A DNA stretch of 37,595 bases from Beijerinckiaceae bacterium (GTDB lineage Bacteria > Pseudomonadota > Alphaproteobacteria > Rhizobiales > Beijerinckiaceae): positions 1-37,595 of the forward strand of contig CANMLK010000011.1 of assembly GCA_947498445.1 (NCBI GenBank), written 5' to 3'. Below the pieces are notes generated by a model that saw nothing but the letters and a program-made list of their open reading frames with translations, was not told where the DNA came from and searched no databases. Every line of letters begins with the position of its first letter. Positions within the stretch are counted from its first letter, which is position 1. Shown piece by piece: positions 7,766 through 34,495 of this stretch. A program made the position numbers and the translations under genes.

Positions 7766-7786
7766 CAATTTGAGGGCCTGCATTTA

Positions 7787-10124: not shown

Positions 10125-10187
10125 TTCGATACGACGCCGCGGCGCGTCACGCGCGCCGCTCAATTCCTTCGAACGGCGCGAGACAGA

Positions 10188-11057: not shown

Positions 11058-11058
11058 C

Positions 11059-16040: not shown

Positions 16041-16991
16041 TCAGGCGCTGCGCACTTTCTGGCGCGCCGAGAGAAACTTGCTGAAGTCCTCGACATCCAC
16101 ACGCTTGCCAGCGCTTGCGTTGTCGAGCAGATGGCGGATGCAGGCAAGCGCAGCAGGCCCCTTCAGGGCGCGCGACCACATTTCCGTGACGGACTTTTCA
16201 TGCAGCGCAATGGCGTCGGGCGCTGATGTAATCATCGCAACGCCGACGCTGACGTTGGGTTCGCCGCCAAGACGAAACGGGCTGAGCACCAGGCAGCGCC
16301 TGTCCGGCTGACGGATGAGCTGGAAGCCAGTGTGCGGCAACGTATCGAGGACGATGCCGACTTGCACGCCCATCGGCTGCTCTTCGATGAGATTGGCGAA
16401 ATGCTGAATCTCGCGACGCGCAAGCGCCTTGCGCTTGCCGAGAACGGATTCGCTCAAGCCCGCGCGACCAATGAAGCCATGGTTGAGAAAGCGCTCGATT
16501 TCAAAGGCGGAAATCAGGTTCACGACATGGGGTGTGCGCTCGCGATAGCAGCGTTTGCGCGCCTGCAGAATGTCGATGATCTTTGGGATGTCGCCCATCG
16601 CCTTTGAGCGTTCGGGCGCATTCTTGCTGATGTTCTCAGTCAGCACCTCTTGCAGCGTTGGCAAGAAGGAGTCCGAGGCCAGCAAGAAAGAGATGGGCCC
16701 GGCGAGCACAACAATGTGCTCCGCCGTTTCTTCAATTTGCCGCACGCGCTCGAAATAGCTGACGGCGGAGGGGATGTATTCGATACCTACGCCCAGAAGC
16801 GTGGGAATGGAGACGCCGAGCAGCTCGGCGAGCTTGTCGAGCGTCTCGATCTTGGCGAGTTCGCCTTTTTCAAACCGGTAGAGCGCCGTGCGCGAGATGC
16901 CAAGCTGTTTGGCGATCTCGTCCGCGCTCAGGCCCGAGCCCATGCGATAGGCCCGGAGCCTGTTTCCGATTTCATCAAAACGAAAAGCCAT
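16041..16991 (-). CDS. XRE-family transcriptional regulator with large C-terminal domain
   Basis: N-terminal HTH: IGNRLRAYRMGSGLSADEIAKQLGISRTALYRFEKGELAKIETLDKLAELLGVSIPTLLG; about 240 aa C-terminal domain not recognised. Confidence 0.9.
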   Translation of the reverse strand: MAFRFDEIGNRLRAYRMGSGLSADEIAKQLGISRTALYRFEKGELAKIETLDKLAELLGVSIPTLLGVGIEYIPSAVSYFERVRQIEETAEHIVVLAGPISFLLASDSFLPTLQEVLTENISKNAPERSKAMGDIPKIIDILQARKRCYRERTPHVVNLISAFEIERFLNHGFIGRAGLSESVLGKRKALARREIQHFANLIEEQPMGVQVGIVLDTLPHTGFQLIRQPDRRCLVLSPFRLGGEPNVSVGVAMITSAPDAIALHEKSVTEMWSRALKGPAALACIRHLLDNASAGKRVDVEDFSKFLSARQKVRSA

Positions 16992-18486: not shown

Positions 18487-18586
18487 CGACGTCTCCTCTG
18501 GTATGAAAAATGTGCAGAAGCGGTCGCCTGCCGGACCTATTGGAGCGTCCGCGATGTATCTTGGCAAGCTAGTCCGATTTTAGGGA

Positions 18587-18697: not shown

Positions 18698-21028
18698 ATG
18701 GCAAGCGTCTTCGGGCAAAGCATCGCGCGGCTGGAAGATCCGCCGTTGTTGCGCGGCAAGGGTCGTTTCGTCGACGACATAGCGCTGCCCGGCATGGTCC
18801 ATGTCGCGTTTGTTCGCAGCTCGTTTGCGCACGCTAAAATTCTCTCCATAGATTGCGACGCTGCGCGCGCCTTGCCCGGCGTCATCGCCATTTGGACTGC
18901 AGCGGATATTCTACCCCACGTCACAGAAAACAAGCTGCGCGTGGCGCTGCCCAGCCCCGCCTTCCGGCAAGAACTGGACCGCCCGATCCTCGTTGAGGAT
19001 GAAGTTGTCCATGTCGGCGAGCCCATCGCGATGATTGTTGCATGCGACCGGTATGTCGCAGAAGACGCGGCCTCGATGGTGATGATCGATTACGATCCAT
19101 TGCCTGCCGTGTCTGACTGTGTCGCCGCGCTCGAGCCCGGCGCCCCCACTGCCCACGCGGCCTCGCGGCATAATCTGTGCGCGCAATTTGACTTCAACTA
19201 CGGCGATACGAATGCTGCGTTCGCAAATGCAGCGCACGTGTTCAAGGAAACACTGTCGCAGCATCGCGGCGTCGCGCACAGCCTGGAGGGGCGCGGCGTC
19301 ATCGCCGCCTATGATGAGCTGGACGACAAGATCACCGTCTGGAGCTCCACTCAGACGCCCCATGCGGCAAAGCGTTATCTGCTCGATATTCTACGCCTTG
19401 ATGAAAACCGTTTGCGCGTGGTGACGCCAGACGTTGGCGGCGGCTTTGGCCCCAAGCTCGTTTTTTATCCCGAAGAAGTCGCCATCACGCTGGCCGCGGT
19501 GCTGCTCAAGCGGCCCGTCAAATGGATTGAAGACCGGCGCGAACATTTCGTCTCCACCACGCAAGAGCGCGATCAGATCTGGACGATGGAAATCGCTGTC
19601 GATGGGCAGGGGCGCATCCTTGGCCTGCGCGGCGACCTCGTGCATGATCATGGCGCCTGGACAGCTCGCGGCGTCAATGTCCCTTACGGCTCTGCCGCAG
19701 CGCTGACGCTGGCTTATGTCGTGCCGGCGTTAAAGCTCGACATCAAGCTGGCGCTCACTAACAAGACGCCCGTAACGCCCATTCGCGGTGCAGGCCAGCC
19801 GCAAGCCGTGTTCGTGATGGAGCGTTTGCTAGACAAGGTGGCGCGCGAACTTAATATCGATCGCGCGGAGGTGCGTCGCCGCAATCTCGTGCCAGCTGAC
19901 AAAATGCCCTATGCCACGCCGATGAAAACGCGCGGCGGCATGCAGGTTGTGCTTGATAGCGGCAATTATCCGCGCAGTCAGGCGCAAGCCCTTGAGGCCG
20001 CTGGCTGGGATGATTTTCCCGCCCGTCAGGCGCAAGCGCTCAAAGAGGGCCGCTACATCGGCATCGGCCTTGCAAACTATGTTGAAGGCACGGGGCGTGG
20101 ACCGTTTGAACCGGTGAGCGTACGCGTTGCGGAGAACAGCCGCATTCACGTCGCCACGGGCGCCGCCGCAATGGGCCAGAGCACGAAGACGATGATTGCT
20201 CAGGTCGTGGCCGAACAGCTGGGCGGCGACGTGAACAATCTTGTCATCACCACAGGCGACACAGCGGCCATTGAGCTTGGCATGGGCGGCTTCAACAGCC
20301 GACAGGCCGTGATGGCCGGCGCCTCAGCCCACGCCGCCGCGCTCGCCGTGCGCAAGAAGGCGATGACAGTTGCAAGCGCGATGCTTGATGTCGGCGAGCA
20401 GGCGCTTGAGCTGGAAGGAGATCGTGTGCGCGTGCGCGGCGCTGATGGACGATCGCTGTCGCTGGGCCAAATCTCGCGCGCTGTTGCGGGCCTGCCGGGC
20501 TATTACATGCCGGGCGGCGTCTCGCCGGGCCTTGAGGCGACCGAACGCGTCATCATCAACGACATGACCTACGCCAATGGCGCGGCGGTCGTTGAAGTTG
20601 AGGTCGATATTGCGACCGGGCAGGTGCATATCGTGAACATCACCTTTTCGCATGATTGCGGACGCATCATTCATCCGCAGATCGTTGAAGGACAGGTCAT
20701 CGGCGGGATCATTCACGGCATCGGCAATGCGCTCTTTGAGCAGATGTCGTATGACGAAAACGCACAGCCGCTGTCGATGACGCTGGCTGAATATCTGCTG
20801 GTGACGTCGACCGAGACGCCCGCGCGCATCAAGCTCCTGCATCAGGAATCGCCTACGCCGCTGAATGAACTTGGCGTCAAGGGAGTTGGCGAAACCGGCG
20901 TCATTCCCATGACAGCGGCGATCTCGTCGGCGGTGGACGATGCTCTTTCGCCATTCGGCGCGCGCGTTATTCGCACGCCCATCTTGCCGCACGACATTAT
21001 TGCATTCGTGGAGGGACGCTCCGCGTGA
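18698..21028 (+). CDS. Mo-hydroxylase large (CoxL-like) subunit, without adjacent M/S partners
   Basis: MASVFGQSIARLEDPPLLRGKGRFVDDI...DVGGGFGPKLVFYPEE...NKTPVTPIRGAGQPQAVFVMERLLD...GVKGVGETG; SD gaggagg; start trimmed from 18620. Confidence 0.95.
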   Translation: MASVFGQSIARLEDPPLLRGKGRFVDDIALPGMVHVAFVRSSFAHAKILSIDCDAARALPGVIAIWTAADILPHVTENKLRVALPSPAFRQELDRPILVEDEVVHVGEPIAMIVACDRYVAEDAASMVMIDYDPLPAVSDCVAALEPGAPTAHAASRHNLCAQFDFNYGDTNAAFANAAHVFKETLSQHRGVAHSLEGRGVIAAYDELDDKITVWSSTQTPHAAKRYLLDILRLDENRLRVVTPDVGGGFGPKLVFYPEEVAITLAAVLLKRPVKWIEDRREHFVSTTQERDQIWTMEIAVDGQGRILGLRGDLVHDHGAWTARGVNVPYGSAAALTLAYVVPALKLDIKLALTNKTPVTPIRGAGQPQAVFVMERLLDKVARELNIDRAEVRRRNLVPADKMPYATPMKTRGGMQVVLDSGNYPRSQAQALEAAGWDDFPARQAQALKEGRYIGIGLANYVEGTGRGPFEPVSVRVAENSRIHVATGAAAMGQSTKTMIAQVVAEQLGGDVNNLVITTGDTAAIELGMGGFNSRQAVMAGASAHAAALAVRKKAMTVASAMLDVGEQALELEGDRVRVRGADGRSLSLGQISRAVAGLPGYYMPGGVSPGLEATERVIINDMTYANGAAVVEVEVDIATGQVHIVNITFSHDCGRIIHPQIVEGQVIGGIIHGIGNALFEQMSYDENAQPLSMTLAEYLLVTSTETPARIKLLHQESPTPLNELGVKGVGETGVIPMTAAISSAVDDALSPFGARVIRTPILPHDIIAFVEGRSA

Positions 21029-21056
21029 GCGCCGAAAGTTTGAGAGAAGGCTCCTC

Positions 21057-22103
21057 ATGACGACACGCATCACGATCACCCGACCCGACGACTGGCACCT
21101 TCACGTGCGCGATGGCGCCATGCTCAAGGCTTCGCTGCCATTTACGGCGCGCGTCTTTGGCCGCGCCATTCTCATGCCCAATCTCGTGCCGCCCGTGCTC
21201 ACTGCCGCAGACGGAGCCGCCTATCGCCAGCGCGCAATGGCCGTTTTGCCCACCGACACAAAATTTACGCCGCTAATCACCTGCTATCTCACCGATGATA
21301 CCGATCCCGACGATGTCGAACGTGGCTTCAGGGAGGGTATCTTCACGGCCGTAAAGCTTTATCCCGCCAACGCGACGACGAATTCGGCGGCTGGCGTCGC
21401 TGATTACGCGAAGATAGAGCGTGTGCTGGCGCGCATGGAAAAAATCGGCATGCTGCTGCTGATCCATTGCGAGGAAGTTGATCCCACAGTTGATGTGTTT
21501 GATCGCGAGGCCGTGTTTATCGATCGACGCCTCATTCCCATGGCGAAAAAATTCCCCGGATTAAAAATCGTCTTCGAGCATATCTCATCGAAGATCGGCA
21601 TTGATTATGTCCGCTCCGCCGCGCCGCAAATTGGCGCCAGCGTCACGCCCTATCACATGCAACTCAACCGCACGGATTGGCTCGGATGGGGCAATCGCCC
21701 GTATATGTATTGCATGCCTGTCATTAAGACCGAGCAGGACCGCATCGCCATCCGTCAGGCCGCGACATCGGGCGAAGCCTGCTTTTTTCTGGGCACTGAT
21801 TCTGCGCCGCACCCGGTGGCGCGCAAACTCGGCGTCATTGGTTCCGCAGGCCTGTTCAATTCTCCCGTGTGCATGGAAACCTATGCGCAGATTTTTGATG
21901 AGGACGACAAGCTCGAGAATCTCGAGAAATTCGCCTCTCTCAACGGGCCCAAGCATTACGGACTGCCGCCCAATTCCGATACGATAACACTTGAAAAAAC
22001 CTCATGGACGGCGCCCGAAGAAGTTCTCTTCGATGGGCCCGAAGAGCGCGCGCTGATCTATCGCGGCGGCGAGAAAATTCCGTGGAAAGTGGTGAGCGCG
22101 TGA
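21057..22103 (+). CDS. pyrC: class II (E. coli-type) dihydroorotase homologue / amidohydrolase
   Basis: RPDDWHLHVRDGAMLK, MPNLVPPV, FTAVKLYPANATTNS, LLIHCEE, IVFEHISSK, FFLGTDSAPHPVARK; start trimmed to 21057. Confidence 0.9.
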   Translation: MTTRITITRPDDWHLHVRDGAMLKASLPFTARVFGRAILMPNLVPPVLTAADGAAYRQRAMAVLPTDTKFTPLITCYLTDDTDPDDVERGFREGIFTAVKLYPANATTNSAAGVADYAKIERVLARMEKIGMLLLIHCEEVDPTVDVFDREAVFIDRRLIPMAKKFPGLKIVFEHISSKIGIDYVRSAAPQIGASVTPYHMQLNRTDWLGWGNRPYMYCMPVIKTEQDRIAIRQAATSGEACFFLGTDSAPHPVARKLGVIGSAGLFNSPVCMETYAQIFDEDDKLENLEKFASLNGPKHYGLPPNSDTITLEKTSWTAPEEVLFDGPEERALIYRGGEKIPWKVVSA

Positions 22104-23416
22104 GCGAACCCTTCGACACTGCGCACCTTCAAAAGCTGTCCGTTGTCGAGGCTGCGGACGCCATTGCGCGCGGCCAGATCACATCGCAGCAGCTTGTGCG
22201 CGCGTTGATTGAACGCACTGAGGCGCGCGACGGCGCCGTGCGTGCATGGGCGGCTTTTGATGCGGATCATGCGCTTGCTCAGGCGCGCGCGTGCGACGAG
22301 GGCGCGACGAGCGGGCCAATGCGCGGCGTGCCCGTGGCCGTAAAGGACGTTCTCAACACGTTCGATTATCCCACGCAAATGGGCTCGCCCATTTACGATG
22401 GCTGGCAATCGCGCAACGACGCCGCCTGCGTCGCGATGCTGCGCAACGCGGGCGCCGTCGTGCTGGGCAAGACGATCACCTGCGAATTTGCCGGCACGCA
22501 TCCCAACGTGACGACCAATCCCCTTGACGCGTCGCGCACCCCCGGCGGCTCATCAAGCGGCTCTGCTGCAGCGGTCGCCGACTTCATGGCGCCCATTGCG
22601 CTTGGCACGCAGACGGGTGGTTCAGTGCTGCGGCCTGCGTCGTTCTGTGGCCTGGTAGGGTTCAAGCCGACATTCGGCGGCTACAACCGCGAAGGGATGC
22701 GTTTTGCCGCCGAATGCATCGACACCATCGGCCTGCTTTCACGCACCATCGAAGACGCCGCCTATTGCGATCACGTGCTGCGCGGCGCAATTCCATCCAC
22801 TCTTGCGCCGCTCGAAAAAGCCCCGCGCGTCGGGCTATGCCGCACCTATATGTGGAGCCTCGCGCAGAGCGAAACGCGTGATTGCGTCGCCAAGGTCGTC
22901 GCACAGATCGAGGCGGCTGGCGCGCCCGTCGAAGAATTCGAATTGCCCCCGCACTTTGCCGATCTCACCAAGGCGCGCGCTATCATCAACGATGTCGAGC
23001 GCGCCCGTTCGCTCGCGTGGGAATGGACAGCGCACCGCGACAAGCTCAGCCCCGGCCTCGTGAAAACGATGGCGAGCGGAATTGCCATATCTGACAGGGA
23101 CTATCGCGATGCGCTGCGGCAAGTCGCTTTGGCGCGCCTGGAGATCGATTCCATTTTGCGGCGATACGATGTAGTGGTGGTGCCGGCCGTCAACGGCGAG
23201 GCCCCTGTCGGTCTGCACTACGCGGGAGACCCGTCGTTTCAGGCATTATGGACGCTCCTGCACGTTCCCTCCATCACTTTGCCAGCGCATCGCGGGCCTA
23301 ACGGCATGCCGGTCGGCATCCAGTTTGTTGCGCCTGTGGGGGAAGACTCTATGCTTCTGCGAGCGGCGCTCTGGATGCAGCATGTAGCCGCCATACGCAT
23401 GGAATCTGACGCATGA
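22100..23416 (+). CDS. amidase signature-family amidase
   Basis: VAVKDVLNT (Lys), TPGGSSSGSAAAVADFMAPIALGTQTGGSVLRPASFCGLVGFKPT; GTG start overlaps the pyrC stop (GTGA). Confidence 0.92.
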   Translation: MSEPFDTAHLQKLSVVEAADAIARGQITSQQLVRALIERTEARDGAVRAWAAFDADHALAQARACDEGATSGPMRGVPVAVKDVLNTFDYPTQMGSPIYDGWQSRNDAACVAMLRNAGAVVLGKTITCEFAGTHPNVTTNPLDASRTPGGSSSGSAAAVADFMAPIALGTQTGGSVLRPASFCGLVGFKPTFGGYNREGMRFAAECIDTIGLLSRTIEDAAYCDHVLRGAIPSTLAPLEKAPRVGLCRTYMWSLAQSETRDCVAKVVAQIEAAGAPVEEFELPPHFADLTKARAIINDVERARSLAWEWTAHRDKLSPGLVKTMASGIAISDRDYRDALRQVALARLEIDSILRRYDVVVVPAVNGEAPVGLHYAGDPSFQALWTLLHVPSITLPAHRGPNGMPVGIQFVAPVGEDSMLLRAALWMQHVAAIRMESDA

Positions 23417-25041
23417 AGAATACGACCCTGACGCTGCTCGGCTACAAGCAGGCGCTGGAATTTCGCCGTCAGGGACACTGGGGCGATGACAGTATTTATG
23501 AACATGCTCGCAAGCAGGCCGAGCGTGCGCCAGAGGCTTTCGCTATTCGCGACGCCTCCCGTCGATGGACGTATGCGCACTTGCTCGCGCGCGCCGATGA
23601 GCTTGCCGCCGCCCTGCACGCGCGCGGCGTGCGTGCGGGCGAGCGCGTTGCTATTTGGTTGCCTAGCCGTGTTGAAATCGCCGCCATTATTCTGGCTTGT
23701 TCTCGCAATGGTTATGTGTGCTGCCCGTCACTGCATCGCGACCACACCGTGGGCGATGTCGCGGCGCTATTGACGCGCATGCGCGCCAGTGTGCTTTTTG
23801 CGCAAGGAGGCTATGGCGCCGACGGCAAGCGAAACAACATTTTTGACGCCTGCAAGGGCATCACGTCTTTGCGCGCTGTCTATGATCTCGAAGGCGACGC
23901 CTTGCCGCTGGACGCAGGCTCATGCTCCCGCGCGGATGATCCAGACACGATCGTCTATCTTGCATTCACATCAGGCACGACTGGTGAACCCAAAGGTGTA
24001 ATGCACTCGGACAACACGCTGCTTGCCAACGCGCTCGCCATGTCGAAGGACTGGAGCTTGGGCGCTGATGGCGTGACGTATTCCATGAGCCCGCTCAGTC
24101 ATAATCTGGGTTTTGGCGCTCTGGTGATGACGCTGGCGCGAGGTGGTGAGTTTGTGGTGCATGATCTTGGCCGCGGAGCCAGCCTTGTTGATCGTATCGT
24201 GGAAACAAACGCCAGCTTCGTCATCGGCGTGCCCACGCACGCAATCGACATGCTTGCAGAGCTGCGGCGCCGCAGCATGTCGAGCCTTGGTCGCGTGAAG
24301 GGCTTTCGCATTTCCGGCGCGTCCGTGCCGCCGAGCATCGCAGCCGGTCTGCTTGAACACGGCGTGAAGCCGCAGAGCGGCTTTGGCATGACGGAGGCAG
24401 GCTCGCATCATTACACATTGCCAGAGGATGACGCCGCAACCATCTGCGAAACGTCCGGCCGCGTCTGCGCTTCATATGAGATCAAGATTTTCCAAACTGA
24501 AAATCCCGATCAGGCGGCCGTGCCTGGCGAGGCGGGACAAATTTGCGGACGCGGCGCAAGCTTGATGCTTGGCTACTTTGATGATCAGGGCTCGACGGAA
24601 AGCAGTTTTAACGCTAGCGGCTGGTTCATCACAGGTGATCTGGGCTTGATTGACGATGACAATTGTCTGCGCGTCACGGGCCGCAAAAAGGACATCATCA
24701 TTCGCGGCGGACACAACATCTTTCCTGCGAAGATCGAAGGCCTCACGCTGCGCCACGCGTCCATCATGCGCGCGGCCGCCGTGCCCGTGCCAGATGAACG
24801 GCTGGGCGAGAAGGTTTGTCTCGCAGTGGCTTTTCGCCCTGGGCAGGCGCTGGAAGCTGACGCTGTGCTGGCCCATCTTGATGCAAGTGGGCTGTCGAAG
24901 TTCGACATGCCAGAATATTATCTTGCCATGGAGGATCTCCCGTTAACCGCCAGCGGCAAGATCCTCAAGCGCGAACTTGTGCGCGCCATTGCAGATGGCG
25001 AAGTAACGCCCCAGCCGGTTCGTTTCAAGGAGGGCACGTGA
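23413..25041 (+). CDS. AMP-dependent acyl-CoA synthetase/ligase
   Basis: IVYLAFTSGTTGEPKGVMHSD, GWFITGDLGLIDDDNCLRVTGRKKDIIIRGGHNIFPAKIE, LTASGKILKREL; ATGA overlap with amidase. Confidence 0.95.
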   Translation: MKNTTLTLLGYKQALEFRRQGHWGDDSIYEHARKQAERAPEAFAIRDASRRWTYAHLLARADELAAALHARGVRAGERVAIWLPSRVEIAAIILACSRNGYVCCPSLHRDHTVGDVAALLTRMRASVLFAQGGYGADGKRNNIFDACKGITSLRAVYDLEGDALPLDAGSCSRADDPDTIVYLAFTSGTTGEPKGVMHSDNTLLANALAMSKDWSLGADGVTYSMSPLSHNLGFGALVMTLARGGEFVVHDLGRGASLVDRIVETNASFVIGVPTHAIDMLAELRRRSMSSLGRVKGFRISGASVPPSIAAGLLEHGVKPQSGFGMTEAGSHHYTLPEDDAATICETSGRVCASYEIKIFQTENPDQAAVPGEAGQICGRGASLMLGYFDDQGSTESSFNASGWFITGDLGLIDDDNCLRVTGRKKDIIIRGGHNIFPAKIEGLTLRHASIMRAAAVPVPDERLGEKVCLAVAFRPGQALEADAVLAHLDASGLSKFDMPEYYLAMEDLPLTASGKILKRELVRAIADGEVTPQPVRFKEGT

Positions 25042-25463
25042 TGTCGCAAGCACTCCTTAAGCGTTTGAAAGTGGAGATGGCGCGGGCGCCGTATCACGCT
25101 TTTCTTCAACCCGATCCCGTGAGCGTTGATGAAGCCGCTGGCGAAGTTAGAGTGCTGTTTCGGGCCAAGCCGGAGTTTCGCCGCGCCCACGACAGCGACG
25201 ATTGGCATGGTGGCGTCATCGCGGCTCTGTGCGACATCGCAGCCCATGCAGCTGTGGCGGTGCGCCTGGGCGATTTTGCGCCCACAATTGATCTGCGTAT
25301 TGATTATCTGGCGCCTGCGCGCGGCGATCTTGTCGCCAAGGGCAAACTGCTGCGCCTTGGCCGCTCCATTGGCCGGGCCGATGTTGAGATTACTGATCCA
25401 TCAGGCAAGCTGGTGGCCGTGGGCCGCGCTGTGTTCAGCGCGCTGCTCGCGCAGGCAAAGTGA
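25041..25463 (+). CDS. PaaI-type hotdog thioesterase
   Basis: HGGVIAALCDIAAHAAVAVRLGDFAPTIDLRIDYLAPARGDLVAKGKLLRLGRSIGRADVEI; start may be GTG 25038 or ATG 25041. Confidence 0.85.
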   Translation: MSQALLKRLKVEMARAPYHAFLQPDPVSVDEAAGEVRVLFRAKPEFRRAHDSDDWHGGVIAALCDIAAHAAVAVRLGDFAPTIDLRIDYLAPARGDLVAKGKLLRLGRSIGRADVEITDPSGKLVAVGRAVFSALLAQAK

Positions 25464-25471
25464 GGCACATC

Positions 25472-26470
25472 ATGCGCGCGGTGGTGTTCGATCAGTTTGG
25501 CCCATTTGAAGACGCCCGCGTTGCGGAGGTTGCGCGACCGTCGGCGGGCCCCAATGACGTTGTGGTGGAGGTTCATGCAGCGCCCGTCAATTATGTTGAT
25601 CTTGTCGTCGTTGCAGGAAAATACCAGTTCTCCCCGCCATTGCCTTTCACACCCGGCAAGGGTCCCGCAGGCGTTGTCGTTGAAACGGGCGCGGCTGTCG
25701 CTGACTTCAAGGTTGGCGACCGGGTCCTCGCCATGGCGGAAATCGGCGGCTACGCGGAATATTCGAAAGTCGCCGCGAAAGATTGTTATCGCATTCCTGA
25801 CTCGCTCTCGTTCTCGAAAGCCGGCGCGCTCTCGCTGGCTTATGACACCGCCTATTTTGCGTTGACCGACAGGGGCCGATTGCAAAAGGGCGAAACGCTT
25901 CTTGTGCTGGGCTCTACAGGCGCTGTAGGCCGCGCTTGCATGCAGCTGGGCAAGGCGATGGGCGCGCGCGTGATTGCTGCGATCTCCTCGCCATCGCGTG
26001 CGCAGGCCGCATATGCAGGCGGCGCAGACGGCGTCGTAAATCTCGCGGCGGAAGACCTGCGCGAAAATCTGCGCAAGGAAGTTTCAGACCTGACAGATGG
26101 ACGCGGCGCCGACGTCGTGATCGACATGCTCGGCGGTGATTTGTTCGATGCGGCAATTCGCGCCGTGGCCTGGCGTGGGCGTGTTGTGATCGTGGGCTTC
26201 GCGGCGGGGCGCATTCCCACGCTCAAGGTCAATTACCTCATGTTGAAGAACATGGAGGTGAGCGGCCTGCAGATCAGCGACTACCGCAAGCGTCGCCCGG
26301 ACATGCTGCAGGATTGCTATCGCGACGTGTTTTCAATGTATGAGCGCGGGCTCATCGATCCCGGTCCCGTTGTGGAGATGCCGCTGTCGCAATTTGCGCA
26401 GGCCATGCGCATGGTCGAACAACGCAAGACGCTGGATCGCGTCATCCTCACGCCGAAGGCGCAGGTCTGA
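25472..26470 (+). CDS. NADPH:quinone oxidoreductase-like MDR protein
   Basis: MRAVVFDQFGPFEDARVAEVARPSAGPNDVVVEVHAAPVNYVDLVVVAGKY...LLVLGSTGAVGRACMQLGKAMGARVIAAISS. Confidence 0.9.
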   Translation: MRAVVFDQFGPFEDARVAEVARPSAGPNDVVVEVHAAPVNYVDLVVVAGKYQFSPPLPFTPGKGPAGVVVETGAAVADFKVGDRVLAMAEIGGYAEYSKVAAKDCYRIPDSLSFSKAGALSLAYDTAYFALTDRGRLQKGETLLVLGSTGAVGRACMQLGKAMGARVIAAISSPSRAQAAYAGGADGVVNLAAEDLRENLRKEVSDLTDGRGADVVIDMLGGDLFDAAIRAVAWRGRVVIVGFAAGRIPTLKVNYLMLKNMEVSGLQISDYRKRRPDMLQDCYRDVFSMYERGLIDPGPVVEMPLSQFAQAMRMVEQRKTLDRVILTPKAQV

Positions 26471-26607
26471 TGAAACTGCGCGCTCATCCAGATGCGTCTG
26501 TACGTTTGACACCGCGCAAAGGTGCGCCATACGGTTCTTTGCGGTCTTGCGTACAAGATGGCGTTGTAACGCCTGCGCGGTCCGCCCGGGGGGAAAGGTC
26601 GATTTGA

Positions 26608-28005
26608 ATGGTCTCACTCACGCGACTCTATGATGTTCTTGTCATCGGCGGCGGTAACGCGGCGTTATGCGCTGCGATTACTGCGCGCGAAGCTGGGGCG
26701 TCGGTGCTTCTCATCGAATGGGCGCCAAAGGCGTTTCGCGGCGGCAATACGCGTCATACGCGTAACCTGCGCGCCATGCATTCCGAGCCGACGTCCGTTC
26801 TCACCGAGAGCTATCTCGAGGATGAGTATTGGGACGACCTCAAGCGCGTCACTGGCAATAACACCAACGAAGAGTTGGCGCGCATCACGATCCGCGAGAC
26901 GGAAGGGTCTCTTCCCTGGCTTGAGGAGCGTGGCGTGCGCTTCCAGCCATCGTTGACAGGCACGCTTAATTTGTCGCGCACCAACGCGTTCTTCCTTGGC
27001 GGCGGCAAGTCGCTGGTCAATGCGCTCTTCAATCATGCCGAGCGGATCGGCGTTGAGGTTCTCTACGATACCGAGGCGACGGACCTCATCATCGACGATG
27101 GCTTTGTGCGTGAAGTCAAGATCGTCAACAAGGGTTTCCCCGCAACAGTTCGCGCAAAGGCTGTCGTCGCGTCGAGTGGCGGTTTTCAGGCCAACATTGA
27201 ATGGCTGAAGGAATACTGGGGCGCCCCGGCTGAAAACTTTCTCATCCGCGGCACGCCCTACGCAAAGGGCCGTGTGTTGCGAAGCCTGCTCGATCAGGGC
27301 GTGCATCAAATTGGCGATCCCACGCAGTGTCACGCGATTGGCATCGACGCGCGCGCGCCAAAGTTTGACGGCGGAATCGCATCACGACTCGACTCCGTAC
27401 CGTTCTCGGTCATGCTCAACCAGAACGGTGATCGCTTCTACGACGAGGGCGAAGATGTATGGCCCAAACGCTACGCGATCTGGGGTCGCCTCATTGCGCA
27501 ACAACCTGACCAGATCGGTTATTCAATCGTCGACTCAAAAGCTGAGAAGCTGTTCATGCCGTCGGTCTTCCCCGCCTACCGGGCAGACTCGATCAGAGAA
27601 CTCGCAAGTCTGCTGGGGCTTGATCCGGACAAGGTTGAAAAGACCATCAGCGAGTACAACGCGGCCGTGCAACCCGGCGTCTTCGATTCATCAAAACTTG
27701 ATGGCTGCACCACCACCGGGATAACGCCGCCCAAGACAAACTGGGCGCAGAAAATCGACACCGCGCCTTTCCTTGCTTATCCGCTGCGGCCGGGCATCAC
27801 CTTCACCTATCTTGGCGTGAAGGTGGATGACCGCGCGCGGGTGTTAATGGCCAACAATGAGCCCACAGCGAACCTCTATGCATCGGGCGAGATCATGGCC
27901 GGTAATATTTTGAGTAAGGGTTATCTGGCGGGCTTTGGCATGTCGATCGGAACGGTTTTCGGTCGCATCGCAGGACGGGAGGCAGCACGAAGTGTCCTCA
28001 ATTAA
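26608..28005 (+). CDS. tcuA: FAD-dependent fumarate-reductase-type flavoprotein, TcuA-like (tricarballylate dehydrogenase family)
   Basis: YDVLVIGGGNAALCAAITAREAGASVLLIEWAPKAFRGGNTRHTRNLRAMH...ILSKGYLAGFGMSIGTVFGRIAGREAA. Confidence 0.88.
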   Translation: MVSLTRLYDVLVIGGGNAALCAAITAREAGASVLLIEWAPKAFRGGNTRHTRNLRAMHSEPTSVLTESYLEDEYWDDLKRVTGNNTNEELARITIRETEGSLPWLEERGVRFQPSLTGTLNLSRTNAFFLGGGKSLVNALFNHAERIGVEVLYDTEATDLIIDDGFVREVKIVNKGFPATVRAKAVVASSGGFQANIEWLKEYWGAPAENFLIRGTPYAKGRVLRSLLDQGVHQIGDPTQCHAIGIDARAPKFDGGIASRLDSVPFSVMLNQNGDRFYDEGEDVWPKRYAIWGRLIAQQPDQIGYSIVDSKAEKLFMPSVFPAYRADSIRELASLLGLDPDKVEKTISEYNAAVQPGVFDSSKLDGCTTTGITPPKTNWAQKIDTAPFLAYPLRPGITFTYLGVKVDDRARVLMANNEPTANLYASGEIMAGNILSKGYLAGFGMSIGTVFGRIAGREAARSVLN

Positions 28006-29161
28006 TCTGGTTGATCTGGCGGAAGATAATTTGCGCGATGAAGCGCGCCGCGCGATGGAAGTGTGTAACGCATGCCGCTATTGCGAAGGCTATTGCGCTG
28101 TGTTTCCAGCAATGGAGATGCGTCGCGAATTTTCCGATGGCGACCTCGATTATCTCGCCAACCTTTGTCACAATTGTCAGGGCTGTTACCAATCCTGCCA
28201 ATATGCGCCGCCCCACCCATTCGGCATCAATGTGCCGAAAGCCTTCGCTGAATTACGCCTGCAGACGTACGCGGACTATGCATGGCCGCAGCCGATGGCG
28301 AAATTCTTCGATCGCAACGGTACCCTCGTCACGTTGCTGACCGCGCTCTGCGTTGCAGGCGTCATCATCGCGCTGATGCTCATTCAGGACGCCAAGGTTG
28401 TCTTCGCAAGTCATGTCGGGCCGGGGGCTTTTTACAAGGTCATCCCGTGGGGGGTAATGACTGCTTTCGCCGGCGCCACATTCCTCTTCGCCATTCTCTC
28501 ACTCGTGATGAGCTTCCGTAATTTCTGGCGCGCCTCGCAGCGGCCCGCGACAGATATCGTGCGTCCGCGAACGCTCGCGCGGGCGATGCATGATATATTT
28601 ACGCTGAAGTATCTGGGCGGCGGAGGACATGGCTGTAACGATGTCAGCGATCAGTTCTCGATGCGCCGTCGCTATTATCATCACTTTACATTTTACGGCT
28701 TTATGCTCTGCTTCGCGGCCACGTCTGTGGCGACGATTTATGATCATGTGCTTGGGCTTCAGGCGCCGTATGCATTCTTCAGCCTGCCGGTCATGCTCGG
28801 CACGATCGGCGGCATCGGCCTCGTGATCGGGCCTGTCGGACTTATCTGGATCAAAATTATCAGCGATCCGGCGCCCTTGTCGAAGAAGATGATCGGCGGC
28901 GATTACGCTCTCTTGATGCTGCTTCTTCTCATATCCGTCACCGGCCTGCTTCTACTCGGGCTTCGCGAAACCGGCGCTATGGGTATCTTGCTCGCGATCC
29001 ATCTGGGCTTCGTGCTGGCCTTCTTCATCGCCATTCCCTACAGCAAGATGGTGCACGGACTTTATCGATCAGCTGCTTTGATACGTTACGCGCTTGAGCG
29101 GCAGGAAGAGAGCGAAGCGCACGCTGCTGCGCAGGGCAAGCCCAAGGTGAAGGCCGCCTGA
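27992..29161 (+). CDS. tcuB: TcuB-like membrane Fe-S/heme partner protein
   Basis: VCNACRYCEGYCAVFPAMEMRREFSDGDLDYLANLCHNCQGCYQSCQYAPPHPFGINVPKA: two Cys-rich clusters followed by TM helices; GTG start overlaps tcuA. Confidence 0.9.
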   Translation: MSSINLVDLAEDNLRDEARRAMEVCNACRYCEGYCAVFPAMEMRREFSDGDLDYLANLCHNCQGCYQSCQYAPPHPFGINVPKAFAELRLQTYADYAWPQPMAKFFDRNGTLVTLLTALCVAGVIIALMLIQDAKVVFASHVGPGAFYKVIPWGVMTAFAGATFLFAILSLVMSFRNFWRASQRPATDIVRPRTLARAMHDIFTLKYLGGGGHGCNDVSDQFSMRRRYYHHFTFYGFMLCFAATSVATIYDHVLGLQAPYAFFSLPVMLGTIGGIGLVIGPVGLIWIKIISDPAPLSKKMIGGDYALLMLLLLISVTGLLLLGLRETGAMGILLAIHLGFVLAFFIAIPYSKMVHGLYRSAALIRYALERQEESEAHAAAQGKPKVKAA

Positions 29162-29715
29162 TGAAGATAAAAAATGAAATCAAAATCGCTGCGCCGCTCG
29201 ACGCCGTCTGGGCGACGCTCGACGATATCCCGCGGGTCGCGCGGTGTGCGCCAGGCGCCGAACTTCTCGAACAGAAAGAGGACGGCGCCTGCATAGGCCG
29301 CATTGGCGTCAAGCTTGGGCCTGTTTCGCTTCAGTTCAAGGGCAGCGTTCAATTCACCGAACGTGATGAAGTTGCGCGCCGCGTGGTCGCCAAGGCCAAG
29401 GGCGCGGAAGAAAAGGCGCGCGGCACTGCCTCTGCCGATGTCGTCTTTCAATTGCACGACGACAATGGCGGCACGAAAATTGTAGTCGAGAGTGATGTTC
29501 AATTGGCCGGCTTCATCGCCCAATACGGGCGCGGCGCTGCGCTGATCCAGAGCACGGCACAGGCCATCATGAATCAGTTCGCAAAGAATCTCGAAGCTGA
29601 TCTGACGGGCGGGCAATCGGCGCCTGCCGGCGATATTTCGCTCGCGAAAGTTGTCGCACAAGGTTTGTGGAGCGCCGGGAAGGATGCTTTTCGCAAGAAG
29701 TCCTCCACGGAATAA
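29161..29715 (+). CDS. CoxG-like SRPBCC protein
   Basis: IAAPLDAVWATLDDIPRVARCAPGAELLEQKEDGACIGRIGVKLGPVSLQFKGSVQFTERDEVARRVVAKAKG. Confidence 0.88.
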   Translation: MKIKNEIKIAAPLDAVWATLDDIPRVARCAPGAELLEQKEDGACIGRIGVKLGPVSLQFKGSVQFTERDEVARRVVAKAKGAEEKARGTASADVVFQLHDDNGGTKIVVESDVQLAGFIAQYGRGAALIQSTAQAIMNQFAKNLEADLTGGQSAPAGDISLAKVVAQGLWSAGKDAFRKKSSTE

Positions 29716-29740
29716 TTTTGTCGATTGGGAGTTTGCGGAC

Positions 29741-30781
29741 ATGACCGGTGTGAGATCGATCAACGTAACAACGGCGGCGCTGGCGAGCTTGCTCGCAGGC
29801 GCCAGTTTCTCAGGCGCTGCGCACGCGCAAGATGCAGCCAGTTTCTACGCGGGCAAGAACATCGGCGTCATCGTCGGCTTTGGACCGGGAGGCGGATATG
29901 ATCTGTATGCGCGCCTTCTCGCACGTTATTACGGCGCACACATTCCCGGCAAGCCCAACGTCATCGTGCAAAATATGCCAGGCGCGGGCGGCGTGAACGC
30001 TGCAAACTTTGTATACAACACCGCAGCAAAAGACGGCACGGTTATCGCTGGCGTCAACCAGGGCGCAGCGTTGTTTCAGCAGCTTGGCGGCAAGGGCGCG
30101 CAATATGACGCCAGCAAGTTTCGCTGGATAGGCCGCATGGCGTCTTCCAATAACGTCGCCTACACTTGGACGGCGTCCGGCGTGCGCACGATAGAAGATG
30201 CAAAAAAGCAGGAAGTGATCATGGCCGGAAGCGGCGTGATCTCAGACGCCAATATCTATCCCAACGTGATGAATGGGCTGCTCAACACGCGCTTCAAAAT
30301 CATCAATGGTTATGCTGGCACGAACGAAAGCAACCTCGCGCTGGAGCGTGGAGAAGTGCAGGGGCGCGGCGGTGGTTCTTACTCCAGCCTGCAAACCACA
30401 CGGCCGCAATGGTTGAAAGACGGCACGATTTCTCTGCTCGTGCAGATTGGTCTTGAAAAAGAGCCGGATCTTCCCAACGTTCCGAGGCTGCTTGACCTCG
30501 TCACCAGTGAACAGGATCGGCAGATCGCCACGCTCGTCACGTTGCCTGTCGAAATCGGCTATAATTACTGGTCGGCGCCAGAAATCCCGGCTGATCGTGT
30601 CGAAGCTTTACGCAAGAGCTTCGAGGTTGCGATGAAAGATCCCGCTCTGCTGGCCGAGGCGAACAAGATTTCGCTCGACATCCGTTACAAGAGCGGCGCA
30701 GAGCTTGAAGATATGGTCGCTAAAGCGTCAAAGACATCGCCCGATGTATTGAAGCGCGCGGCGCAGATTCTGGGCTGGTGA
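29741..30781 (+). CDS. Bug/TctC-family TTT substrate-binding protein
   Basis: Signal peptide, then SFYAGKNIGVIVGFGPGGGYDLYARLLARYYGAHIPGKPNVIVQNMPGAGGVNAANFVYN; start trimmed from 29651. Confidence 0.92.
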   Translation: MTGVRSINVTTAALASLLAGASFSGAAHAQDAASFYAGKNIGVIVGFGPGGGYDLYARLLARYYGAHIPGKPNVIVQNMPGAGGVNAANFVYNTAAKDGTVIAGVNQGAALFQQLGGKGAQYDASKFRWIGRMASSNNVAYTWTASGVRTIEDAKKQEVIMAGSGVISDANIYPNVMNGLLNTRFKIINGYAGTNESNLALERGEVQGRGGGSYSSLQTTRPQWLKDGTISLLVQIGLEKEPDLPNVPRLLDLVTSEQDRQIATLVTLPVEIGYNYWSAPEIPADRVEALRKSFEVAMKDPALLAEANKISLDIRYKSGAELEDMVAKASKTSPDVLKRAAQILGW

Positions 30782-30800
30782 TGCAACGCCGGGAGACGAG

Positions 30801-31673
30801 ATGAAGCCGCCGCCGTTCAGTTATTACGCGCCGACCTCTGTGCAGGAGGCGGTCGCGCTACTGGGCTCGCTTGAAAACGCGCGCGTGCTGGCGGGCGGGC
30901 AATCGCTGCTGCCCATGCTGAACATGCGTTTTGCAACGCCGGATCACGTCATCGACATCAATCGTATTCCCGACCTCACAGGCATGGCCATTCGCGACGG
31001 AGAAGTGGTGATCGGCGCCATGACGCGACAGCGTGATCTGGAGTTCAGCCCCCTCATTCGCGAGCATTTGCCGCTCATGCATGAGGCGCTGCAATTTGTC
31101 GGGCACCGCCAGACACGCAATCGCGGCACCATCGGCGGCTCCTTGTGTCACTTGGACCCCGCTGCCGAATTGCCCTGCATTGCAGCCGCGCATGATGCTG
31201 TTGTCGATGTGGTCAGTGAAAGTGGTGCGCGCGAAATTCGTTTCGCAGAATTTCCGCTTGGCTATCTGACGCCGTCGCTGGAGCCAGGTGAAATGGTTCG
31301 CGCCATTCGCTTTCCAATATGGCCAACGCGCACAGGCGCATCCTTCGTCGAGTTTGCGCGCCGTCACGGCGACTTTGCGATCGTCTCCGTCGCCGTGCTC
31401 GTGACAATGGGCGCGGATGGCGCCATCGAACGCGCGAGCCTTACGTTCGGCGGCGTCGGGTCTGGCCCCATGCGTATGCATGATGTCGAGAGCGCGTTGA
31501 TCGGCAAAAGGCTTGACGCAGTCGCTATCAAGGCAGCAGCAGAGACGTGCGGGGCGATTGAGATTGACGACGACCCCTACACGCCGCCCCATTACCGAAA
31601 GCACCTCTGCCGCACGCTTGTTGCGCGCGCCTTGGAAACCGCCGCCTCGCGCGCCAGTGGGAGCCGCCCGTGA
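30801..31673 (+). CDS. Mo-hydroxylase FAD-binding (CoxM-like) subunit
   Basis: MKPPPFSYYAPTSVQEAVALLGSLENARVLAGGQSLLPMLNMRFATPDHVIDINRI...RQTRNRGTIGGSLCHLDPAAELP. Confidence 0.95.
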   Translation: MKPPPFSYYAPTSVQEAVALLGSLENARVLAGGQSLLPMLNMRFATPDHVIDINRIPDLTGMAIRDGEVVIGAMTRQRDLEFSPLIREHLPLMHEALQFVGHRQTRNRGTIGGSLCHLDPAAELPCIAAAHDAVVDVVSESGAREIRFAEFPLGYLTPSLEPGEMVRAIRFPIWPTRTGASFVEFARRHGDFAIVSVAVLVTMGADGAIERASLTFGGVGSGPMRMHDVESALIGKRLDAVAIKAAAETCGAIEIDDDPYTPPHYRKHLCRTLVARALETAASRASGSRP

Positions 31674-32176
31674 ACGAACCCGTCGATATGCGCACCATTT
31701 CGGTCAAGGTGAACGGTGTCGAGCATCGCCGCACCGCGCCCGTACGCATGTTGCTGTCGGATTTTCTGCGGCATGAATTGCGTCTCACGGGCACGCATGT
31801 CGGATGCGAACACGGCGTGTGCGGCGCTTGCACTGTGCTGGTTGATGGGCGCAGCGCGCGCGCCTGCCTGATGCTCGCAGTGCAGTCGGATGGTTGCGAA
31901 ATTCTCACGATTGAAGGCATCGCCAATGCTGACGGAACTCTGCATCCCCTGCAGGATGCGTTTCAGCGTCACCACGCGCTGCAGTGCGGCTTTTGCACGC
32001 CCGGCATGCTGACGACGCTCATGGAGCTTCTGGCCGACAACCCCTCGCCAACGGAAGAGGACGTGAAGATCACGATCTCCGGAAACCTGTGCCGTTGCAC
32101 GGGATACGCAGGCATCGTGAAGGCTGCGCTTGATGCAGCCGCCGTGTTGCGCGGTGAAAAGGCGCCTGAGATATAG
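31670..32176 (+). CDS. Mo-hydroxylase 2Fe-2S (CoxS-like) subunit
   Basis: GTHVGCEHGVCGACTVLVDG and CGFCTPGMLTTLMELL...GNLCRCTGY; GTG start overlaps the upstream stop (ATG 31688 is the alternative). Confidence 0.95.
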   Translation: MNEPVDMRTISVKVNGVEHRRTAPVRMLLSDFLRHELRLTGTHVGCEHGVCGACTVLVDGRSARACLMLAVQSDGCEILTIEGIANADGTLHPLQDAFQRHHALQCGFCTPGMLTTLMELLADNPSPTEEDVKITISGNLCRCTGYAGIVKAALDAAAVLRGEKAPEI

Positions 32177-32179
32177 GCC

Positions 32180-34495
32180 TCAGGCGCGTCCCAACCTGTT
32201 CATGATTTTCTTCAGCCGTTGCGGCGTAATGGGCAGTTGCGTAACCGCTCCAGGGCTGCTTAACGCGTCGTCGACGGCTGACGCAATCGCAGCGCCCACA
32301 GCCGCGATGCCGCTCTCGCCAGCGCCCTTGATGCCGAGCGGATTACGCGGGCTTGGCGCATCTTCCGCGATGATGACTTCCACATTCGGCACTTCATTGG
32401 CCGTCGGCATAAGATAGTCGACGAACGTCACCGACAACGGTTCGCCGCGCTCATCGTAGAGAAACTCCTCGTACAACGCGCCTCCAAGGCCCTGCGCAAA
32501 GCCGCCAAGAATCTGTCCGCGCACAAGCACAGGATTGATCGCGCGGCCGATGTCGTAAGCAATCACATACTGCTCGACATTGACGGCGCAAGTTTCGCGA
32601 TCAATTGAAACTACGGCGATCTGGTTTCCGTACGGATACACCTGATGATCGGTGTCGAACCATCCGTCGGCGCTCAGGCCCGGTTCACGCCCACGCCGCA
32701 ATTTCGCAGCTGGCCGAAGATGGTTTGCGATCTCTCCCAGCGTGATCGAAGGGCCTTCGCTTTCTCCGCGGCGGATCACGCGACCTTCAATGATGTCGAG
32801 CATCGCCGCATCGCTTTGCAATAGTTCAGCCGCGAACGACAGCGCTTTTTCACGAACGATGAGCGCGGCGGCGTGAACCGCGTTGGCTGTCATAACCGTA
32901 GCGCGTGACGCATGCGCCCCGATGCCAAAATCAATACGGTCCGTGCGTCCATGGACAACGCGGATGTTGCGATAGTCCACGCCAAGCGCCTCAGCGCAGA
33001 CTTGCGCCATGACAGTTTCGAAGCCCTGGCCAACGGATGCGCCGCCGGTGATGACCTCAATGGCGCCGGTTGTGTCGACGCATACATGCGCGCCGTCGGT
33101 GGGCCCCAGTCCGCTTTTTTCCACGAATGTCGCCAGACCAACGCCGACAAGCTCACCGCGCTTGCGACGCTCGGCCAGTTCGCCCTGCAGTTCATCCCAC
33201 TTGATCGCCTTTAGCGATTTGTCGAGCAGACCTACGTAATCGCCTGAGTCATACGAGACGTCATCTTCCAGTACGCAAAGTGGCCGCGCGTAGGGCATTT
33301 CATCGGAGGAGATGAGATTCTGTTTGCGCACATCGATGCGCGAAATTTTGAGCTTTGCCGCTATGGCGTCGAGCAGACGCTCGCGCACGAAATTCGTTTC
33401 GTAGCGGCCGGGCGCGCGATACGTGGCGGCGGGAGTCTTGTTGGTGAGGCGATAATGCCCAAGCGCCTTGTACGCGCCAACGCGATACGGGCCGGGCAGG
33501 ATGCCGCAAGTGGTTTCCGCCACGCGCATGGCATGCGTGCGCGGATACGCGCCCTGATCGTGCCAGAACTCATTCTCGATGGCGAGCAGCGTACCCTTTT
33601 CGTCAACCGCCGCCCGCGTTTTGTGGTGCTGCTCGCGCGACTGATTTGCGGCCATCAGATGTTCGCGGCGATCCTCGATCCATTTCACAGCGCCGCCAAA
33701 CCGCAACGCTGCGGCGAGCACAAGAATGTCCTCAGGATAAATTTCGCCGCGCACGCCAAAGCCGCCGCCCACATGCGTTTCGAAAAGATGCAGCGCCGCA
33801 GCAGGCCGGCCAAACAGGCGCGCCAGCGTTTCCTTGTTCTTGTGCGGCACTTTCGCCGCGCCGTGCAATTCCAGCACATCGCGCGCCGCATCGTATCGGC
33901 CGATGGCGCCGCGCGTCTCCAGCGGCACGCCGGAGTGGCGGCCAACAGTAACGTCTATTTCAACCACGGCGTAGGCTGTCGCAAACACGCTGGCGGTGTC
34001 GCCAAAGCCCTGCGTGATAATCGCAGCTTCGCTTGAAAGTCCCGGCGCGAAGTCGCCAGTCGCCGCGCGAGCGTCCATGATGACAGGCAGATCTTCAATC
34101 TCGATTTCAACAAGGTCGGCGGCGTCTTCCGCGATGTAAGCGTCGCTGGCGAAGATAGCTGCGACAGGCTCGCCAACATAACGCACGCGATCAATCGCGA
34201 GCACAGGCTGGCGATAGGGCTCAAGCTTCTCGATCTTGCCCTCGCGAAAATCGATGGGGCCGATCTCGGGAATGTCTTGCGCCGTCCACACGGCGTGCAC
34301 GCCGGGCAGGGCGCGCGCGGCTTGCGCGTCAATGCGCTTGATAAGCCCATGCGCGCTTGTGGAGCGGACAATGCGCATGTGCAATTGGTGCGCAAACGAA
34401 ATGTCGCCGACGAACATGCCCTTGCCGATGATGAGCGGCCGGTCCTCGAGGCGCTGAACGGATTGGCCGATGACGCCTTGTGGCTTCGCGTTCAT
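32180..34495 (-). CDS. Mo-hydroxylase large (CoxL-like) subunit
   Basis: IGQSVQRLEDRPLIIGKGMFVGDI...HVGGGFGVRGEIYPED...NKTPAATYRAPGRYETNFVRERLLD...GIKGAGESG. Confidence 0.95.
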   Translation of the reverse strand: MNAKPQGVIGQSVQRLEDRPLIIGKGMFVGDISFAHQLHMRIVRSTSAHGLIKRIDAQAARALPGVHAVWTAQDIPEIGPIDFREGKIEKLEPYRQPVLAIDRVRYVGEPVAAIFASDAYIAEDAADLVEIEIEDLPVIMDARAATGDFAPGLSSEAAIITQGFGDTASVFATAYAVVEIDVTVGRHSGVPLETRGAIGRYDAARDVLELHGAAKVPHKNKETLARLFGRPAAALHLFETHVGGGFGVRGEIYPEDILVLAAALRFGGAVKWIEDRREHLMAANQSREQHHKTRAAVDEKGTLLAIENEFWHDQGAYPRTHAMRVAETTCGILPGPYRVGAYKALGHYRLTNKTPAATYRAPGRYETNFVRERLLDAIAAKLKISRIDVRKQNLISSDEMPYARPLCVLEDDVSYDSGDYVGLLDKSLKAIKWDELQGELAERRKRGELVGVGLATFVEKSGLGPTDGAHVCVDTTGAIEVITGGASVGQGFETVMAQVCAEALGVDYRNIRVVHGRTDRIDFGIGAHASRATVMTANAVHAAALIVREKALSFAAELLQSDAAMLDIIEGRVIRRGESEGPSITLGEIANHLRPAAKLRRGREPGLSADGWFDTDHQVYPYGNQIAVVSIDRETCAVNVEQYVIAYDIGRAINPVLVRGQILGGFAQGLGGALYEEFLYDERGEPLSVTFVDYLMPTANEVPNVEVIIAEDAPSPRNPLGIKGAGESGIAAVGAAIASAVDDALSSPGAVTQLPITPQRLKKIMNRLGRA

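Follow-up and report, generated by a model that had tools for sequence, protein, structure and literature searches.

Genes for a putative pyridine-4-carboxylate degradation pathway with a dihydroorotase homologue as candidate ring-opening enzyme in a Beijerinckiaceae bacterium

The window, i.e., the whole stretch of DNA that was analyzed, is one entire contig of 37,595 nucleotides (CANMLK010000011.1) of a Beijerinckiaceae bacterium, and the assembly (GCA_947498445.1) has a size of 3.9 Mb, 332 contigs and a completeness of 98%. The window contains a plus-strand operon that encodes, among others, a molybdenum (Mo) hydroxylase, a class II dihydroorotase homologue (PyrC), an amidase, an acyl-CoA ligase, a thioesterase, a QOR-type reductase and the tricarballylate proteins TcuA and TcuB. 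This combination makes it a candidate for the degradation of a pyridine carboxylate.

Gene content and arrangement of the window

The operon consists of 12 packed genes, from the Mo hydroxylase gene CoxL (start at 18698, in an open reading frame that opens at 18620) through the end of CoxS at 32176 (Table 1). At the junctions the genes overlap by a few bases or are separated by fewer than 40 bases, and the sole exception is the gap 26471-26607, the sequence of which contains no promoter- or terminator-like site. Overlaps of 4 bases were found for PyrC/amidase (22103/22100), amidase/ligase (23416/23413), ligase/thioesterase (25041/25038), thioesterase/QOR (25463/25460) and CoxM/CoxS (31673/31670). 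TcuB and CoxG share one base (TGATG at 29161), and the sequence places the GTG start of TcuB at 27992, within TcuA. A preliminary description of the window had reported a tight, co-oriented run with overlaps and a single sizeable gap, and the exact junctions bear this out.

Around the operon the window contains two more complete Mo hydroxylases, a UbiD family decarboxylase, an XRE-type regulator and a class II aldolase homologue. No Bug receptor gene is assigned to the minus strand at 9129-11117, because the open reading frame there is spurious and the real genes are 9138-10124 and CoxM1, both on the plus strand.

Table 1. Features of the window, with their coordinates and the basis of their assignment.
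Feature	Position	Strand	Basis or remark
NMT1/solute-binding-protein-like protein, possible accessory decarboxylase	9138..10124	+	no signal peptide seen; NMT1 21.6 bits, just above cut-off
Third complete Mo hydroxylase	10188..13844	+	CoxM1 10188-11057, CoxS1 within open reading frame 10795-11541, CoxL1 11538-13844; Pfam
Bug/TctC-like solute receptor	14133..15152	+	weak TctC match; by eye similar to the window's other Bug proteins
Class II aldolase-type decarboxylase, probably of a pyridine dicarboxylate	15222..16037	+	best solved relative 2z7b
XRE-type regulator, family of orotate-utilization operons	16041..16991	-	orthologues, tree
UbiD family decarboxylase	17032..18567	-	Pfam/NCBIfam
Mo hydroxylase large subunit, CoxL-type	18698..21028	+	not CO dehydrogenase
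Class II dihydroorotase homologue (PyrC), proposed 2,6-dioxopiperidine-4-carboxylate imidase	21057..22103	+	TIGR00856
Malonamidase-E2-like amidase, proposed tricarballylamate amidohydrolase	22100..23416	+	Amidase family; malonamidase E2 closest solved
Acyl-CoA ligase, proposed citrazinate-CoA ligase	23413..25041	+	AMP-binding
Hotdog (PaaI/4HBT) thioesterase, proposed release of 2,6-dioxopiperidine-4-carboxylate	25038..25463	+	4HBT
MDR/QOR-type reductase, proposed NADPH citrazyl-CoA reductase	25460..26470	+	family profile match
TcuA, FAD-dependent tricarballylate dehydrogenase	26608..28005	+	curated profiles
TcuB, 4Fe-4S/membrane partner of TcuA	27992..29161	+	TIGR02484
CoxG-like Mo hydroxylase accessory protein	29161..29715	+	PF06240
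Bug/TctC-type periplasmic receptor	29741..30781	+	PF03401 E 1.5e-5, under gathering score
Mo hydroxylase medium and small subunits	30801..32176	+	CoxM 30801-31673, CoxS 31670-32176; Pfam
Second Mo hydroxylase CoxL3/S3/M3, converging on operon	32180..35825	-	closest solved relative Kdh
Bug/TctC-type receptor	35976..37058	+	PF03401 27.6 bits

Conservation in other genomes and on plasmids

The preliminary description had proposed a search for conserved synteny, which revealed the gene set and order in two further genomes and, in part, on a plasmid. The first example is locus L097 of the Hyphomicrobiales metagenome-assembled genome RYN_480 (G778). It has the order UbiD / CoxMSL-PyrC-amidase-CoxG-ligase-QOR-HTH-CoxM1S1L1, and the identities to the window are 79% for UbiD, 76% for PyrC, 56% for the amidase, 66% for the ligase, 57% for QOR, 67% for the regulator and 75-85% for CoxM1-S1-L1. 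CoxL3 (78%) and TcuAB (60/53%) are encoded elsewhere in this genome. The second example is G211, which belongs to the same order as the window genome and has nearly the whole set, TcuAB included, distributed over four contigs: C190 (regulator, QOR, amidase, PyrC), C199 (ligase), C208 (TcuAB) and C68 (UbiD, CoxL3S3M3, Bug, class II aldolase, CoxLSM). Of 298 genomes of that order, the window genome and G211 were the only two with the PyrC clade (at least 60% identity) and the ligase (at least 55%), and the same two were the only ones of 398 with CoxL (at least 60%). G775 and G611, from another order of the same class, have the arrangement UbiD-regulator-PyrC-TcuA relative-amidase, together with Mo hydroxylases.

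The set extends to plasmids. The uncharacterized system on plasmid pDP3 of the betaproteobacterium Alicycliphilus denitrificans DP3 has the order CoxG-ligase (56%)-thioesterase (55%)-QOR (54%)-CE4-XdhC-amidase (49%)-HTH (61%). In addition, the plasmid encodes two Mo hydroxylases, LysR-TcuA-TcuB and a LIV transporter. It shares with the window the ligase-thioesterase-QOR order, the amidase, the HTH regulator, two Mo hydroxylases and TcuAB, but differs by a CE4 gene instead of PyrC, other types of Mo hydroxylases and the LIV-type ABC transporter. The Arthrobacter plasmid pLDW-10 carries TcuA, a thioesterase, a Mo hydroxylase, a CoxG-like gene, two CE4 genes, a ligase and QOR, with an asparaginase in the place of the amidase. 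UbiD was not seen in the examined, annotated stretches of pDP3 and pLDW-10. Contig C190 of G211 bridges both types: it has a pDP3-type Mo hydroxylase (65-74%), LIV binding protein (68%) and regulator (68%), as well as QOR (61%) and amidase (53%) related to those of pDP3, yet it encodes PyrC. As a side observation, pDP3 (NZ_CP051297.1, 62.8 kb; L219/L216) contains more than 20 kb of catabolic genes twice, at about 3.7-26 kb and 40.6-62 kb, with the same protein accessions and TcuAB listed once, which could be a recent amplification or an assembly effect.

The gene run is confirmed as real, and the recurrence of set and order in L097, in G211 and partly on pDP3 exceeds chance. Since the genes are repeatedly syntenic and occur together in different orders and classes and on plasmids, they are hardly a loosely assembled collection of Mo hydroxylase, TcuAB and amide-hydrolase genes that form no single pathway. 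A patchwork would fit the splitting over several loci in G211 and G778 and the large numbers of Bug and Mo hydroxylase genes in these two genomes, but it is very improbable.

The dihydroorotase homologue, its replacement by CE4, and the regulator

The PyrC homologue matches the profile pyrC_dimer (TIGR00856) with 388 bits (cut-off 293), and its orthologues, which are 68-76% identical, reside in the same gene context. The window protein and five relatives show no variation in the metal ligands, the carboxylated lysine, Arg20/Asn44/His254 and the Thr-Thr loop, and neither do 123 others (counted on database sequences; the residue labels were taken from an approximate E. coli PyrC sequence and may be off by 1-2 residues). 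All carboxylate-binding residues of dihydroorotase are kept. Clade-specific changes are found in a block around residues 201-230 (labels approximate); residue 222 of dihydroorotase is presumably a contact on the N1/C2 side of the substrate. The genome encodes a separate dihydroorotase above the TIGR00857 cut-off, and therefore the window PyrC, which has a catabolic context, is probably dispensable for pyrimidine synthesis.

The proposed substrate is 2,6-dioxopiperidine-4-carboxylate. This compound differs from dihydroorotate by a CH2 group where the latter has N1-H; two carbonyls flank its imide nitrogen, and the carboxylate is para to this nitrogen. It is also reduced citrazinate, and a cyclic imide that yields tricarballylate upon hydrolysis and deamidation. 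Because it is the exact carba-analogue of dihydroorotate, it would fit a dihydroorotase.

Comparison with pDP3 (DISPLACEMENT) revealed that a PuuE/CE4-type 'polysaccharide deacetylase' gene occupies the slot of PyrC. The CE4 family includes the cyclic imide hydrolase of P. putida and HxnM of A. nidulans, which opens the piperidinedione ring in nicotinate degradation (PMC9304392). CE4 orthologues (67-75%) were found in all four genomes of the class that have the ligase and lack the PyrC clade, in two cases on the contig of the ligase. In contrast, none of the five PyrC-clade genomes has a CE4 orthologue at that level (best match 49%; Fisher p 0.008, for small numbers and with relatedness ignored). 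When only ligase-positive genomes are counted, three have the PyrC clade and four have CE4, again mutually exclusive (Fisher p 0.029, likewise for small numbers and with relatedness ignored). This complementary distribution is the strongest evidence that PyrC would act as a cyclic imidase here.

The second slot is filled by the amidase. Its best solved relative is malonamidase E2 (E 3.5e-76), the substrate of which is the half-amide of a dicarboxylate. The arginine of the motif GGSxxRP (malonamidase Arg158) is kept in the amidase orthologues. It is absent from the 30% identical amidases of G766, G672 and G457, which were rejected as orthologues for this reason. Thus a putative cyclic imide hydrolase (PyrC or CE4) and a putative half-amidase (malonamidase-type or asparaginase) are both present in the clusters. 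The conservation of these two slots in three lineages, with non-orthologous replacements, indicates the opening of a C-N ring. It speaks against a furoate/furandicarboxylate (hmf)-like or aromatic route, in which UbiD, the CoA ligase and the Mo dehydrogenase would act on a furan and PyrC and the amidase would be bystanders. The resemblance to the hmf set that the preliminary description had noted is indeed partial: UbiD, ligase and Mo dehydrogenase are common components, but imidase and amidase are part of the conserved cluster, and such a route is hardly credible.

Orthologues of the regulator (60-67%) are encoded in G778, G211, G775, G611 and on pDP3. The regulators of PyrC-type and CE4-type clusters form a clade of their own (support 0.98), apart from homologues in loci that, judged by gene content, serve orotate utilization. 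In Variovorax, the regulator family and PyrC occur within MFS-PyrK-PyrD-carbamoylase-PyrC-HTH operons, and in Nitratireductor and Roseicitreum the regulator is found with TRAP-PyrK-PyrD-hydrolase. Because the regulator belongs to this family, a recruitment of PyrC from the same source would be explained, and we infer that the window-type PyrC stems from orotate-utilization operons. By analogy, the regulator probably senses an orotate-like molecule, e.g., citrazinate or a hydroxylated precursor.

These pairs of HTH and PyrC genes, or of HTH and PyrK-PyrD-hydrolase genes, also raise the question whether the operon itself degrades orotate or another pyrimidine, with dihydroorotate as the substrate of PyrC and carbamoylaspartate as that of the amidase. 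Orotate operons indeed share the class II dihydroorotase, the XRE family and the opening of an imide followed by nitrogen release. However, PyrKD and carbamoylase are absent from the window, and orotate degradation offers no place for the ligase, the reductase, the thioesterase, TcuAB and the Mo hydroxylases. In addition, the separate clade of the cluster regulators includes that of pDP3, which has no PyrC. An orotate operon is therefore a highly improbable explanation.

Two matches were set aside: G700 (70% PyrC) was rejected as a member of the pathway, because PyrKD and phosphoribosyltransferases adjoin, i.e., an orotate/pyrimidine context, and the one inspected PyrC match on a Klebsiella plasmid lies in an ordinary chromosomal-type pyrC region. 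On plasmid 2 of Variovorax sp. RA8 (L225, 8346-10564), a CE4 imidase-type gene and, directly after it, an amidase gene have hydantoinase genes as neighbors and lie near a PyrC-containing orotate-type operon, an example of an imidase/half-amidase pair in another context.

The balance tips slightly towards the view that a class II dihydroorotase and an orotate-family regulator were recruited together, that the former became a catabolic imidase for carba-dihydroorotate and replaces the CE4 cyclic imide hydrolase in a pyridine-4-carboxylate pathway that is orthologous in its other parts, and that the cluster would be the first gene set of an isonicotinate-citrazinate-tricarballylate route.

Proposed pathway, alternatives and meaning

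The window contains three complete Mo hydroxylase sets with the conserved Glu. The best solved relative of all three is 7dqx, the 6-hydroxypseudooxynicotine dehydrogenase (Kdh), a pyridine hydroxylase, and the likeness is clearest for CoxL3 (E 2e-187, next solved structure 9e-119). The AYRCSFR loop of CO dehydrogenase is absent from the CoxL proteins of the window, which have PIRGAGQP, TYRGPGR and TYRAPGR instead and score under the CO dehydrogenase cut-offs. Judged by sequence, the 'CoxL' genes are not CO dehydrogenases. Orthologues of the operon CoxL (60-68%) each have their own S and M subunits, and sets 55-78% identical to CoxL3S3M3 are present in G211, G778 and G611. Near the latter set in G778 (C38, L212, 15761-17757), genes of the maleate isomerase-like and luciferase-like flavin monooxygenase types were seen by eye, suggesting another N-heterocycle route there.

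The ligase and reductase genes are co-conserved with two Mo hydroxylases. The Mo hydroxylase-linked ligases form a clade that is split from beta-oxidation-linked ligases (support 1.0), and QOR, which belongs to the same superfamily as enoyl-CoA reductases, adjoins the ligase in most loci of this clade, both plasmids included. Not every ligase/QOR pair marks the pathway: 50% relatives of Paraburkholderia and Cupriavidus lie in beta-oxidation-like clusters, outside the clade. The pDP3 orthologue of the thioesterase (55%) is encoded between the ligase and QOR. TcuA scored 681 and 581 bits (cut-offs 369 and 373) and TcuB 483 bits with TIGR02484 (cut-off 247), and thus genes for the oxidation of tricarballylate to cis-aconitate are present by curated cut-offs; this reaction is assigned to TcuA in PMC10468695. 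In G766 (C45, L202, 4524-6301), a putative Rieske-type ring dioxygenase pair was seen by eye beside a TcuA relative, in a cluster with ligase, QOR and two Mo hydroxylases.

From the genes, their conservation, orthology, displacement and conserved residues, it was deduced that the cluster encodes, with a probability of roughly 0.7, the aerobic degradation of a pyridine-4-carboxylate (isonicotinate, or a dicarboxylate funnelled to it) via citrazinate and tricarballylate. With a dicarboxylate as input, UbiD and/or the class II aldolase-type decarboxylase would trim the extra ring carboxylate. Two of the three Mo hydroxylases would hydroxylate C2 and C6, yielding citrazinate (2,6-dihydroxypyridine-4-carboxylate), and the ligase would form citrazyl-CoA, the thioester of which, in the dioxo tautomer, would be an enoyl-type acceptor. 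The QOR/MDR reductase would reduce this enoyl-type bond with NADPH, and the thioesterase would liberate 2,6-dioxopiperidine-4-carboxylate. The dihydroorotase homologue would hydrolyze it to tricarballylate monoamide, the amidase would release ammonia, and TcuAB would oxidize the resulting tricarballylate to cis-aconitate, which enters the citric acid cycle.

The preliminary description had suggested that a carboxylated N-heterocycle is degraded, with Mo hydroxylation, opening of a cyclic amide and deamidation among the steps. This is supported, with a cyclic imide as the proposed ring. It had placed CoA activation last and had assigned ring reduction to TcuA. Neither assignment is supported: judged by the comparison of clusters and by the chemistry, ligase, QOR and thioesterase would act ahead of ring opening, and TcuAB would come last. 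It had also recognized no described pathway with the full set, but the order of reactions matches a route described biochemically. According to work cited in PMC4548258 (Kretzer, Frunzke and Andreesen 1993), Mycobacterium sp. INA1 converts isonicotinate into a 2,6-dihydroxy compound. Both systems would share two Mo hydroxylations to citrazinate, and the window has a candidate gene for each step. In contrast to the window's, the INA1 route was defined biochemically, in an actinobacterium. Here a dihydroorotase homologue would open the ring, and the window has UbiD, the class II aldolase homologue and a third Mo hydroxylase as additional components. After citrazinate, the INA1 route reportedly proceeds by CoA activation and ring reduction to tricarballylate. 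We know of no published gene set for it, and no gene-level account of isonicotinate, citrazinate or isoniazid degradation or of strain DP3 was found in the openly licensed literature, an absence of little weight. The hxn nicotinate pathway of A. nidulans also leads from a pyridine to a piperidinedione, a cyclic imidase (HxnM) and an amide hydrolase (HxnN), but HxnM is CE4-type, CoA activation is absent and the product is hydroxyglutarate instead of tricarballylate (PMC9304392).

The input compound is the weakest part of the proposal. It may be a pyridine dicarboxylate, because UbiD and the class II aldolase homologue accompany the cluster. UbiD (best solved relative 7pda) has 70-79% orthologues in G778, G211, G611 and G775 and is conserved with PyrC-type clusters; its role as ring decarboxylase, which had been proposed before, is plausible. 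The class II aldolase homologue next to it is closest to 2z7b (Mlr6791; E 2.6e-42, next solved 1e-14), which we take to be the 3-hydroxy-2-methylpyridine-4,5-dicarboxylate decarboxylase of vitamin B6 breakdown, and it has a 41% homologue in the G211 cluster. A Massilia relative (38.6%) of the solute-binding-protein-like protein is annotated as 4,5-dihydroxyphthalate decarboxylase, and genes of this family repeatedly neighbor Mo hydroxylase genes, for instance in L097.

Several points weigh against the isonicotinate proposal. Isonicotinate alone does not explain the roles of UbiD and the class II aldolase homologue, nor those of the third Mo hydroxylase and the solute-binding-protein-like protein. 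On pDP3 and pLDW-10, the large subunits of the Mo hydroxylases share only about 29-34% identity with those of the window. In G778 and G211, TcuAB is encoded away from the main cluster, and therefore its position in the operon is not conserved, while G775 and G611 have only a 35% TcuA relative. The ligase orthologue was not found in G775 and G611 at the threshold used. Apart from the window, pDP3 alone yielded a thioesterase orthologue, with none in the G211 contigs examined.

Some of these points would also fit the same architecture acting on another N-heterocycle, with a different acid as product and TcuAB acting on that acid instead of tricarballylate. UbiD, the pyridine-dicarboxylate-decarboxylase homologue and the third Mo hydroxylase suggest that the input carries more substituents, and the Mo hydroxylase sets differ between PyrC-type and CE4-type clusters. 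However, TcuA and TcuB score above the curated tricarballylate cut-offs, TcuAB is also present on pDP3, and the carboxylate-binding residues of dihydroorotase are kept, in line with a 4-carboxylated glutarimide, which matches dihydroorotate and yields tricarballylate. Another heterocycle is thus unlikely.

Further features of the window are an alphaproteobacterial small RNA (Rfam ar35, 7636-7768, plus strand, 49 bits, cut-off 45) between a glutathione S-transferase gene and a Bug receptor gene, as well as a two-part chromate transporter and an isochorismatase-family gene (957-2114 and 2216-3004).

Taken together, the operon and its surrounding genes are likely the gene set for a known biochemical route, with a new ring-opening enzyme. 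Each step of a biochemically known route of pyridine degradation would then have its candidate gene, and this would be relevant for the fate of isoniazid, which has a pyridine-4-carboxylic acid core, and of other pyridine-4-carboxylates in soil and water. If true, an enzyme of pyrimidine biosynthesis has moved into catabolism through an exact match in substrate shape, and two unrelated imidases fill one slot.

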